A DNA stretch of 64,000 bases from assembly GCF_000152885.1 (NCBI RefSeq), contig NZ_CH672405.1, positions 14,472 to 78,471 of the forward strand, written 5' to 3'. The notes beneath the pieces were generated by a model, which worked only from the letters and a program-made list of their open reading frames with translations, was not told the origin of the DNA and did not search any database. Source of the DNA: Idiomarina baltica OS145. GTDB taxonomy: Bacteria > Pseudomonadota > Gammaproteobacteria > Enterobacterales > Alteromonadaceae. Below are positions 44,834 to 51,194 of the stretch, in pieces. The position numbers and the translations under genes were made by a program. How positions within the stretch are numbered: the stretch's first letter is position 1; each line of letters begins with the position of its first letter.

Positions 44834-44856
44834 CTATTCTAACGAAAAAGCCATAA

Positions 44857-44883
44857 AAAAGGGAGCCAAATTGGCTCCCTTTT
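44857..44883 (-). terminator. Hairpin terminator/attenuator between rplT and pheS
   Basis: On the minus strand AAAAGGGAGCC and GGCTCCCTTTT pair around a five-base loop and run into TTTATGG. It can end part of the thrS-infC-rpmI-rplT transcript before pheST. A second, weaker hairpin (ATCGG...CCGAT, about 44888-44922) lies just upstream and could compete. Confidence 0.7.
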
Positions 44884-44922
44884 AAATCTGTTTATCGGTT
44901 TTTGGCAAAGCCTTTTTGCCGA

Positions 44923-45565: not shown

Positions 45566-46108
45566 TCACTTCTTAGCCGGTGCCAGAACCATAATCATCT
45601 GGCGACCTTCGGCCCTTCTAGGGAACGACTCAACAGTTGAGATTTCGTCTAAATCGTCTTTAATACGAGTTAGCAGCTCAATACCCAACTCTTGGTGTGC
45701 CATTTCCCGGCCACGGAAACGGATAGTGACTTTAGTTTTGTCACCTCCCTCGAGGAAACGACGCAGGTTGCGCAGTTTTACCTGGTAGTCGCCCTCATCT
45801 GTGCCAGGTCGGAATTTGACTTCCTTAACCTGAATCTGTTTCTGCTTTTTCTTCTGCTCTTTCTGGTCTTTACTCTTTTCGTAGAGAAACTTACCGTAAT
45901 CCATAAGGCGGCAGACAGGTGGCTCAGCATTTGGACTCATTTCGACCAAATCAACACCAGCATCCTCTGCTGCTTCAAGAGCTTCATTGATACTTACAAT
46001 ACCGATCTGTTCACCTTCCGTGCCAATTAAGCGAACTTCATTAACACGAATTTCGTCATTGATACGATTTTTGTCAGCGCTTTTCTGAGTTCTTTTTCCG
46101 CCTTTAAT
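45566..46108 (-). CDS. infC: Translation initiation factor IF-3 (ATT start)
   Basis: 180 residues when started at the ATT at 46106-46108, preceded by GGAGGAATAAACC. It then reads [28 protein letters not shown], an almost exact match to the E. coli start, and continues with [71 protein letters not shown] shorter ATG start at 45949 would remove the N-terminal domain. IF-3 rejects non-standard start codons, so an AUU start gives autoregulation, as known for E. coli infC. It is 20 bases after thrS. Confidence 0.96.
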
Positions 46109-46128: not shown

Positions 46129-48045
46129 TTAATTGATTTTGCGTGTACGCACTTCTGCTTGTAACTGCTCAACAAACTGTTCGAGCGGAAACTTACCTAA
46201 GTCTTCACCGCTACGAGTACGAACCGCAACCTCGCCAGCCTCGACTTCTTTGTCGCCGACAACTAGCAAATAGGGAACACGTTTTAAAGTGTGTTCTCGG
46301 ATTTTAAAGCCTATCTTCTCATTTCTCAAGTCGGCTGATGCACGAATTCCCTTTTCATTCAGGGATTTCACTACTTTATTGACGTAATCGCGTTGATTAT
46401 CGGTAATATTCATCAACACGACTTGCGTCGGTGCGAGCCACAACGGGAAATTCCCCGCATACTCTTCAATAAGAATGCCCATAAAACGTTCAAGTGAGCC
46501 GAGAATGGCTCGGTGAATCATCACAGGCGTATGGCGATCGTTATCTTCACCTACATAAGTCGCATTTAAACGACCTGGTAACGCGAAATCTAACTGTATT
46601 GTACCACACTGCCACGCACGACCTAAGCAATCGAACAAAGTAAATTCAATTTTAGGACCGTAGAAGGCACCTTCACCGGGTAAATAGGTGAAGTCGATAT
46701 CATGCGCTTTCAAGGCATCCGCTAAAGCTTTTTCACTGCGATCCCAAGTTGCATCATCACCGAGGCGTTTCTCAGGGCGTGTTGAAAGCTTCACATCGAT
46801 CTTATCGAAACCAAAGGTTTCGTATGTTTCGTAGACCATTTTGATACACGCAGCGACTTCGTCTTGCACCTGATCTTCTGTACAAAAAACGTGCGCATCG
46901 TCTTGTGTAAAGCCACGTACACGCATCAGTCCGTGCAACGCACCTGAAGGTTCATTCCGGTGACACGATCCAAACTCGGCCATACGTAATGGCAGATCAC
47001 GGTAAGACTTAAGACCTTGGTTAAAGATCTGTACGTGACCTGGGCAGTTCATTGGTTTTACCGCGTACTCGCGGTTTTCCGATGATGTCGTAAACATCAG
47101 GTCTGAGAACTTCTCCCAATGACCCGACTTTTCCCACAATACTCGGTCCATCATCATCGGACCTTTCACTTCTTGGTATTGATATTCACGAAGCTTTTCG
47201 CGCACGAAGTCTTCAAGTTCGCGGAAAATGGTCCAACCGTTATGGTGCCAAAATACCATACCTGGCGCTTCTTCTTGCCAGTGGAACAGGTCTTGTGCCT
47301 TACCAATCTTACGGTGATCGCGTTTTTCGGCCTCTTCTAACCGTTGCAGATACGCTTTTAACTGTTTTTTATCCGCCCACGCAGTACCGTAAACACGTTG
47401 CAACATCTTGTTATCTGAGTTACCACGCCAGTATGCGCCCGCCATTTTCATCACTTTAAAGTGTTGGCAGAATTTCATCGTTGGCACGTGTGGTCCACGG
47501 CACATATCAATGTATTCTTCGTGGTGGTAAAGACCCGGGTTGGCATCCGTTGGAATATCTTCGTCGAGAATTTCGACTTTGTATGGTTCATGGCGCTCTA
47601 CAAACGTCTCACGCGCTTCTTGCCAACTCACCTTCTTCTTAATGACCTGATACTCAGTTTTCGCCAGTTCTTTCATGCGTTTTTCAAGTTTATCGAGGTC
47701 GTCCTGCGTTAATGTGTGGTCAACGTCAACATCGTAATAGAACCCGTTATCGATGACTGGGCCTATCGCCATTTTTGCGTCCGGCCATAATTGCTTAAAC
47801 GCGTGACCTAATAAGTGAGCACAAGAGTGACGAATAATATGTAAACCGTCATCGTCTTTCGGTGTCACGATCTCAATACGCGCATCGTGTTCAATCATTT
47901 CACAGGCATCGACGAGTTCACCGTCAATACGGCCTGCTACGGTGGCTTTAGCTAAACCAGCACCAATATCTTGAGCCACATCCAAAATGGATACAGGTTG
48001 ATCAAATTCGCGTTGACTACCGTCAGGGAGAGTGATTACAGGCAT
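46129..48045 (-). CDS. thrS: Threonyl-tRNA synthetase
   Basis: 638 residues (E. coli 642). Domains: TGS (1-62, [24 protein letters not shown]), the N2 editing domain with [16 protein letters not shown] and a CRGPH site, the class II catalytic core ([57 protein letters not shown] in several motifs; [15 protein letters not shown]), and the anticodon domain (from about 535). AAGGAA precedes the ATG. Its leader carries two tRNA-Thr anticodon-arm mimics and is probably autoregulated. It is the first gene of thrS-infC-rpmI-rplT-pheST-ihfA. Confidence 0.98.
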
Positions 48046-48065
48046 GAAACTTCCTTTCTACAGTG

Positions 48066-48086
48066 GTGACACCTACCAAGTGCCAC
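48066..48086 (-). promoter_or_regulatory. thrS operator hairpin 1 (tRNA-Thr anticodon-arm mimic, next to the ribosome site)
   Basis: On the minus strand GTGGCAC pairs with GTGTCAC (seven pairs, one G-U) around the seven-base loop TTGGTAG. Read as an anticodon loop it has U33, anticodon GGU at 34-36 and A37, that is tRNA-Thr(GGU). It lies at -21 to -41 from the thrS ATG, immediately upstream of the AAGGAA ribosome-binding site, the place of domain 2 of the E. coli thrS operator. Confidence 0.8.
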
Positions 48087-48125
48087 ATGCGCTAACATCG
48101 ATTCTTTGTCGAACCATACGAAATT

Positions 48126-48154
48126 GTTTACGTTCGGTACCATCGAACGTAAAC
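48126..48154 (-). promoter_or_regulatory. thrS operator hairpin 2 (second anticodon-arm mimic, distal)
   Basis: On the minus strand GTTTACGTTCG and CGAACGTAAAC form a perfect 11-pair stem around the seven-base loop ATGGTAC, again U33-GGU-A37. It spans -81 to -109, matching the place of domain 4 of the E. coli thrS operator. Its 5' edge coincides with the predicted transcription start. Confidence 0.8.
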
Positions 48155-48158
48155 CCAC

Positions 48159-48187
48159 ACTATAATGCAGGCTTTTTGTGAGAGCAA
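48159..48187 (-). promoter_or_regulatory. Candidate thrS promoter
   Basis: On the minus strand TTGCTC (48182-48187), a 17-base spacer and TATAGT (48159-48164). Transcription would begin near 48152, at the base of the distal operator hairpin. A plus-strand TATAAT (48161-48166) overlaps it and may serve the EamA gene. Confidence 0.45.
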
Positions 48188-48196
48188 GGGTAACAC

Positions 48197-49081
48197 ATGG
48201 ATCTAGCGAGTGTTTGGGGGCAGCTAGCAGCGTTAACAGCAGCCGCTTTTTGGGCAGTGGCTTCGATACTTTATCATCGCGCCGGTGCTCACTTCTCAGC
48301 GTTACAAATGAATCTCATCAAAGGCGTAATTGCCAGTCCGTTGCTATTCGGTATGAGTGCCCTGTTTGGCGCACCGTTGGTATTTAGTGCAGGGCCCTGG
48401 TTACTCGCCCTCAGCGGAGTAATTGGTATTACCGTAGGCGACAGCTGCCATTTTGCCGCATTGCGCCGTTTGGGCCCCTGGCACGCGATGCTACTCGAAT
48501 ACTTAGCGCCACCTCTAGCTGCGTTTATGGCTTGGTTGTTTTTAAACGACGGCCTTTCTGGTATCGAAATTATCGGTGCGCTAGTGACTTTGTTGGGTGT
48601 TTTATTGGTCGTCACTGAACGTGCGCCGAATCAGCAGCCGTCGCTGTCCATCAGCGGTATCCTGTTTGGCTGTGGTGCTGCCTTCTGTCAAGCAACTGGG
48701 CTGGTAATGGCTTTTTCGGTATTACAAAATGATCTTATTGATCCGCTCAGTGCGGCATTTATTCGCCTTGCGGCCGGTTCTATTCTATTAGCGCTGATTG
48801 TTGGAATATCACAACGCCACGCTTTTCAAGCCATTTTTCGCCAGTGCCGAGCCATTAACCCACTGCCACTGCTGGGTGCTATCTTTTTTGGCACCTTTTT
48901 AGCGATTTGGTTACAGCAGCTATCTATTGCACATATTAATCCGGGTTTAACACAAACACTTCTGTCCACTGCACCACTTTTTTTAATTCCAATTTCTTTA
49001 TTGAAAAAACAAAAGATTACCGTGCGTTCGCTGTTCGGCGCACTGGTATCATTAGGTGGTATTGCGATTCTCTTTCTATAA
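48197..49081 (+). CDS. EamA-family (DMT) transporter
   Basis: A 294-residue inner-membrane protein with about ten helices in two EamA repeats (for example AALTAAAFWAVASILYH, GPWLLALSGVIGITVGDSCHFAALRRLGPWHAMLLEYLAPPLAAFMAWLFLNDG and PLLGAIFFGTFLAIWLQQLSIAHINPGLTQTLLSTAPLFLIPISL in sections). DMT proteins usually export amino acids or other metabolites; the substrate is unknown. AAGGGT lies before the ATG. Divergent from thrS; its promoter region overlaps the distal thrS operator hairpin. Confidence 0.9.
   Translation: MDLASVWGQLAALTAAAFWAVASILYHRAGAHFSALQMNLIKGVIASPLLFGMSALFGAPLVFSAGPWLLALSGVIGITVGDSCHFAALRRLGPWHAMLLEYLAPPLAAFMAWLFLNDGLSGIEIIGALVTLLGVLLVVTERAPNQQPSLSISGILFGCGAAFCQATGLVMAFSVLQNDLIDPLSAAFIRLAAGSILLALIVGISQRHAFQAIFRQCRAINPLPLLGAIFFGTFLAIWLQQLSIAHINPGLTQTLLSTAPLFLIPISLLKKQKITVRSLFGALVSLGGIAILFL

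Positions 49082-51117: not shown

Positions 51118-51194
<77 letters not shown>

Follow-up and report, generated by a model that had tools for sequence, protein, structure and literature searches.

A probable two-arm threonyl-tRNA synthetase operator in the thrS leader of Idiomarina

The leader of the thrS gene of Idiomarina baltica OS145 is very probably a two-arm operator through which threonyl-tRNA synthetase (ThrRS) would act on its own mRNA, of the kind found in Escherichia coli. We analyzed a stretch of 64,000 nucleotides (hereafter the window) and compared its thrS leader with those of relatives. Two anticodon-like arms precede the gene, both stems covary, G35 and U36 of the loops are fixed while position 34 is free, the promoter is conserved and the ThrRS is full length. 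The binding, repression and competition in Idiomarina we infer from E. coli. A first-pass annotation, made from the letters of the window, had proposed a two-arm architecture mimicking tRNA-Thr, and the strong covariation in both stems together with the fixed GU at loop positions 35-36 supports it.

The gene (46129-48045, minus strand) codes for 638 aa. Its product aligns ungapped with E. coli ThrRS over 637 residues at 75% identity, full length and with the N-terminal domains kept. It is the single full-length copy of thrS in the genome (two other matches are short and 27-28% identical) and the closest named relative by ThrRS was Idiomarina sp. MD25a, with 99% identity. On the 3' side follow, on the same strand, infC, rpmI, rplT, pheS and pheT, names that rest on recognition and on the gene order of E. 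coli. The gene on the upstream side is divergent, starts at 48197 and looks like an EamA-type transporter. Both hairpins fall within the 119 bases that precede the start codon, together with a Shine-Dalgarno sequence, AAGGA, read from the sequence at 48052-48056 (minus strand).

Two hairpins with loops TTGGTAG and ATGGTAC and stems of 7 and 11 pairs had been described upstream of thrS, and our hairpin search confirmed both. The proximal one (48086-48066, minus strand, -41 to -21; GUGGCAC-UUGGUAG-GUGUCAC) has its loop at 48073-48079 and one G.U among the seven pairs. The distal one (48154-48126, minus strand, -109 to -81; GUUUACGUUCG-AUGGUAC-CGAACGUAAAC) has its loop at 48137-48143. Its 11 pairs are perfect in the window, but only about seven inner pairs are common to the genus, a conserved core of seven pairs at 48130-48150. 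An outer helix closes the proximal arm (48088-48090 pairing with 48060-48062, minus strand); its 3' side adjoins and partly overlaps the conserved CACUG motif at 48061-48065 and its outermost pair (1-31) also covaries. Between the arms runs a linker (48091-48125, minus strand) in which UUUC is invariant in all 17 aligned Idiomarina leaders and UUUCGUA appears in 11 of them. This linker is a possible ribosome docking stretch. In the E. coli type the corresponding domain 3 is an unpaired U-rich linker on which the 30S subunit docks; in the window the linker is not notably U-rich.

Over both strands of the window (128 kb) a loop NTGGTAN on a stem of at least seven pairs was found in exactly these two hairpins, the background being 167 hairpins with any 7-base loop and a stem of at least seven pairs, and 10 with at least 11. 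Among 20,000 dinucleotide shuffles of the leader, hairpins with a loop NNNGT[AG]N and at least six pairs occurred at least once in 717 and twice in 13, and such a hairpin with at least 11 pairs in eight. The leader, whose folding had been suggested as a check, has a folding energy 2.9 standard deviations better than that of its own shuffles, but the best single fold has a 9-pair stem with a 3-base loop that consumes part of the proximal loop. Folding energy alone therefore fails to show the 7-base proximal loop, which rests on covariation.

Two further candidates were considered in the leader. A leader peptide could start from the AUG in the distal loop, whose frame by eye stays open in the window as far as the beginning of thrS; we rejected it because the relatives whose loop is ACTGTAA or ATTGTAC lack this AUG. 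Five of 19 Idiomarina genomes (G005, G007, G008, G016 and G017) have a possible third arm in the linker, AAAAAAT-TTCGTAG-GTTTTTT or a shorter version of it. The window has UUUCGUA without such a stem, and we make no claim for a third CGU arm there.

The proximal arm was searched by its CACT anchor and stem only, the loop not being used, in 212 leaders (80 named loci, E. coli K-12 and 131 other genomes of the same order) that are not independent, as some species are present twice. At the level of the order, 132 of the 138 genomes searched had thrS, and leaders were taken from part of these. The anchor was present in 197 of the 212 leaders, and 190 had an arm with no more than one mismatch. Every one of these 190 anchored arms has GU at loop positions 35-36, and position 34 is occupied by G (113 arms), C (47), U (21) or A (9). 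The expectation of an invariant GGU in relatives did not hold: position 34 varies, and what is constant is G35 and U36. A fixed GU with a free position 34 is what would be expected of a site read by ThrRS. Among the 22 leaders without a qualifying arm, 15 have no CACT anchor and seven are anchored without an arm of at most one mismatch. One of the 22 (L150) has by eye an 8-base loop, five (G136, G104, G121, G062 and G164) have a similar arm with no CACT behind it and three (G154, G139 and G106) have, also by eye, an NGU loop in an imperfect hairpin; in the remaining ones we recognised no arm.

Aligning 80 distinct proximal arms, we found 98.4% of the cells paired, a value that is partly a matter of choice since the arms were preselected for at most one stem mismatch and for GU at 35-36. 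The changes of pair type are unaffected by this selection, and every one of the seven stem pairs shows two-sided changes somewhere in the alignment. Covariation over these 80 arms was 0.566, against 0.219 when shuffled and at most 0.158 when slid. The arm is unvarying in the 17 aligned Idiomarina leaders, so there is no covariation of it within the genus. At the same place E. coli K-12 has the arm GUGAUCU-UUCGUGU-GGGUCAC followed by CACUG, which we take as domain 2 of its operator. The proximal arm of Idiomarina is the homologue of this domain.

A covariance model built on the proximal arm (R1) was run on 369 Gammaproteobacteria genomes and matched at least 119 of them at E up to 0.01, a lower bound given the strict filters. 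In a sample of the phylum it matched 86 of 398 genomes, 83 of them Gammaproteobacteria and three of one other family (E 2e-5 to 4e-3). The match to the window had E 5.0e-11, with the same arm sequence present in the training set. The matches inspected, 30 loci and 20 stretches of the 119 genomes, were the stronger hits with a few chosen weaker ones. Of the loci, 27 precede a ThrRS start by script and two (L260 and L283) by eye, L284 being undecided; of the stretches, 17 precede ThrRS by script and two (G288 and G225) by eye, one having no ThrRS frame in the part read. In one genome the thrS operator occurs a second time (L311 in G472, contig C18), with no ThrRS frame in the stretch read after it. 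In another family of the class, two adjacent arms with CGU loops stand before thrS (L301 in G520, and L316 in G425, the latter by eye), which may represent a distinct version of the two-arm operator. Neither the window nor the thrS leader of E. coli had a relevant match in Rfam 15.

The distal arm is present in 19 of 19 Idiomarina genomes. In the alignment of 17 Idiomarina leaders (15 distinct, I. xiamenensis left out) two distal stem pairs change on both sides and stay paired, except that one of the two is broken in a single leader. Two metagenome bins titled Idiomarina, with ThrRS 80-82% identical (L173 and L176), had no GT-loop hairpin in the scan. For the family we used 121 leaders of 50 genera, a search having found thrS in 144 of 147 genomes, part of which were fetched. 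Choosing A[CT]NGTAN located 11-19 bases after a -10-like box, without use of the stem, we found 45 occurrences in the 121 leaders, 41 of them with five out of five flanking pairs, in 11 genera; six control triplets in the same test gave 14 occurrences and none with five out of five. Without the -10 condition the figures were 43 of 81, against 0 of 26 in antisense and 6 of 214 for eight control triplets. Covariation of the distal arm was 0.673, against 0.226 when shuffled and at most 0.155 when slid (30 distinct arms, four incompletely paired ones included). Whether related leaders would have compensatory changes, the check that had been proposed, got a clear answer, as both stems have them. 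Position 34 of the distal loop takes all four bases in the family; in Idiomarina itself the triplets GGU, UGU and AGU are found. It therefore looks as if the distal arm were read by something that needs G35 and U36 and not position 34. This NGU pattern fits reading by ThrRS better than a fixed GGU would, because Thr anticodons share only G35 and U36.

The predicted promoter of thrS consists of a -35 element TTGCTC at 48182-48187 and a conserved -10 element TATAGT at 48159-48164 (minus strand). Of the 40 named loci L138-L177, 32 have the arrangement TTGCnn-17-TATAGT ahead of the leader and six a near variant; L172 and L175 have no promoter of this kind. A strict consensus promoter scan of the window did not report the thrS promoter. 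Judging from the -10 box at 48164-48159, transcription would start near 48152, so that the outermost distal pairs may be untranscribed. The first-pass annotation had placed the start at the distal stem, which is supported by TTGCnn-17-TATAGT: of the 11 named Idiomarina loci whose ThrRS is at least 86% identical, 10 have it. In these 11 (L138-L147 and L149) the -10 box is 102-162 bases before the ATG. Of the 14 named Pseudidiomarina loci, 12 have it at 68-73 bases (in L166 it lies at -92, and L175 yielded none). The leader of these 12 is only about 60 bases long and has no room for a distal arm; two arms are therefore not essential in the wider group. With promoter and proximal arm constant on either side, the distal arm looks like a module placed between them. 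As for experimentally mapped start sites, thrS is not mentioned in the available main-text passages of a paper on the primary transcriptome of Alteromonas (PMC5864184).

Other readings of the distal arm have to be weighed. As a perfect palindrome just after a -10 box it could be a DNA operator for a transcription factor. However, a DNA site would be expected to keep its arms, and here the stem changes are compensated, the loop keeps GUA and its position 34 varies, all of which makes this reading most improbable. It could also be a mere 5' stabilising hairpin that slows mRNA decay, and its location close to where the RNA is predicted to begin, seen in 11 genera, would suit such a role. A stabiliser needs no GUA loop, though, and among 7-base loops on stems of at least five pairs in the 121 family leaders GTA stands at 35-37 in 44, against six for the next triplet; we consider this explanation quite unlikely. 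A different alternative, attenuation, concerns what the 5' arm does. It might let ThrRS control an intrinsic terminator in the leader, or the terminated leader might be a small RNA that binds ThrRS, with the proximal arm adding control of translation. We regard this as possible but rather doubtful. In its favor, among the 102 family leaders outside Idiomarina a terminator-like hairpin was found in 23 of 23 with a 5' arm (a GTA-loop arm that follows a -10-like box by 11-19 bases) and in 17 of 79 without it, with a Fisher p of 2e-12 if the leaders were independent, which they are not; by genus the comparison was 10 of 10 against 10 of 39 (p 2e-5). The hairpin is downstream of the 5' arm or fused with it, and 18 of the 23 have the stem form CACCC-loop-GGGTG. 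The distal arm alone would have been made by the time RNA polymerase reaches it. In two species of genus g12 (G029 and G605) the arm is the terminator-like hairpin itself, with loop CUCGUAU or AUCGUAA, and a third of its four species (G632) carries CUCGUAU within a loop of eight bases. Eight of the 23 (L330, L335-L338, L340, L024 and L026) allowed the gene order to be read, and in all eight the closest frame upstream with 90 aa or more is divergent, which puts the hairpin inside the thrS leader. The nearest upstream frame is also divergent in I. xiamenensis (L149), Lacimicrobium (L211), L333 and L023; no tRNA genes were found in L023, L024, L026, L149 or L211. Two loci with a co-directional upstream gene, L150 and L169, have no terminator-like hairpin under the stricter definition described below.

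Against attenuation, 18 of 19 Idiomarina, the window included, have no terminator-like hairpin, the sole carrier being I. xiamenensis. In the window the scan for such hairpins found no intrinsic terminator between the thrS promoter and the gene, and a consensus terminator scan reported one site there, the distal arm followed by AATTTCGTAT, with a poor T tract. The tie is looser when the -10 condition is dropped: the terminator-like hairpin is then present in 24 of 30 leaders that have a GTA-loop hairpin and in 16 of 72 that do not, and half of the six exceptions belong to genus g18 (L035, L382 and L398), with loop CUUGUAU and no -10-like box nearby. The sample also leans towards genera already seen with the hairpin: all listed genomes of g5, g10, g12, g15 and g377 were taken, because it had been seen in some of them, and the other genera were sampled. 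The antisense control is not empty, as a loose terminator definition gave 41 sense and 13 antisense hairpins in the 121 family leaders, while the stricter one gave 15 sense and one antisense in 173 deduplicated order-level leaders, their shuffles giving 1.1 on average. The hairpin of g12 would begin almost at +1, very early for termination. Moreover, the U tract could be a U-rich docking site for the 30S subunit as in E. coli, going by the available part of PMC3858243. Only tentatively, then, would we suggest that the thrS leader of the family is a two-level switch, in which ThrRS, on meeting the mimic at the extreme 5' end of the nascent RNA, would decide on read-through of the intrinsic terminator just downstream, and the second mimic would then control translation. 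If that were true, Idiomarina would have both arms and mostly no terminator, and Pseudidiomarina mostly the translational arm only. As an observation apart, we saw a terminator-like hairpin between the arms, or fused with the mimic (L042 and L372), in L149, L211, L024, L026, L330, L335-L338 and L340.

Control of translation by ThrRS through both arms is the reading we prefer for Idiomarina, and the enzyme is consistent with it. N575, R583, R589, E600 and R609, which we take to be anticodon contacts of E. coli ThrRS, are identical in the Idiomarina protein. E. coli ThrRS structures match the enzyme by sequence, among them entry 1kog, presumably the complex of ThrRS with its operator. The tRNA-Thr anticodon loops of Idiomarina are UUGGUAA and CUUGUAA, and the proximal loop has six of the seven bases of UUGGUAA. 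These tRNA-Thr genes were taken from other Idiomarina genomes, since the E. coli tRNA-Thr(GGU) gene used as query gave only partial matches in the assembly itself; ARAGORN reported no tRNA-Thr among 22 loci, with a few of 36 matches not covered. According to the available parts of the respective papers, the E. coli thrS operator has two anticodon-like arms (PMC9976931), competes with tRNA for ThrRS (PMC7373986) and has a U-rich 30S docking site upstream of domain 2 (PMC3858243). By homology, both arms in Idiomarina would copy the anticodon stem-loop of tRNA-Thr, and when ThrRS is in excess of free tRNA-Thr a ThrRS dimer would bind both. The bound enzyme would cover the stretch before the Shine-Dalgarno sequence and block the 30S subunit, and tRNA-Thr, competing for the same site of ThrRS, would lift the block.

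The likeness to the E. coli operator (domains 1-4) extends, going by the available parts of PMC9976931 and PMC3858243, to the gene, the place, a domain 2 homologue with CACUG, an upstream anticodon-like arm, NGU loops and a Shine-Dalgarno sequence after the arm. The loop of E. coli domain 2 has CGU, whereas the window has GGU in both loops. The distal arm of Idiomarina is a short, clean hairpin with a 7-base loop at the predicted 5' end, while domain 4 of E. coli folds as a long imperfect stem; the likeness of the two is one of form. In yeast, the AspRS and ThrRS-RPC10 mRNAs also have an anticodon-like hairpin that is bound by a synthetase (available parts of PMC9976931 and PMC9956033), but these cases are eukaryotic. 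T-box leaders of Gram positives also control a synthetase gene through tRNA, and some relatives of Idiomarina share with them a terminator-like hairpin. T-box leaders bind tRNA, whereas the Idiomarina leader imitates it, and Rfam matched no T-box in the window, nor anything at all in 47900-48400 at E up to 1.

The thrS operator of E. coli is a classic case of tRNA mimicry in mRNA. Judging by titles and the openings of abstracts, we found no literature on how widely it is spread. The relatives amount to a set of natural mutants, with all four NGU loops, stems swapped base by base and leaders with one or two arms behind the same promoter, so that the role of the second arm can be directly tested. 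Since a terminator-like hairpin stands beside the 5' arm, this mimic might control transcription too. The main interest lies in the evolution of the second arm and in its tie to this hairpin.

Some minor features of the locus can be added. A terminator-like hairpin lies between rplT and pheS (44852-44884, minus strand), the position of the pheM leader in E. coli, and by eye no pheM-like peptide was seen between these genes. About 3 kb from thrS there is a tRNA-Val(GAC) gene (51118-51191, plus strand), and in several other Gammaproteobacteria an apparent tRNA-Val(GAC) gene stands, by eye, directly before the thrS operator. The start codon of infC appears to be AUU after GGAGG (46106-46108, minus strand), which we take to be the unusual start typical of IF3 genes.
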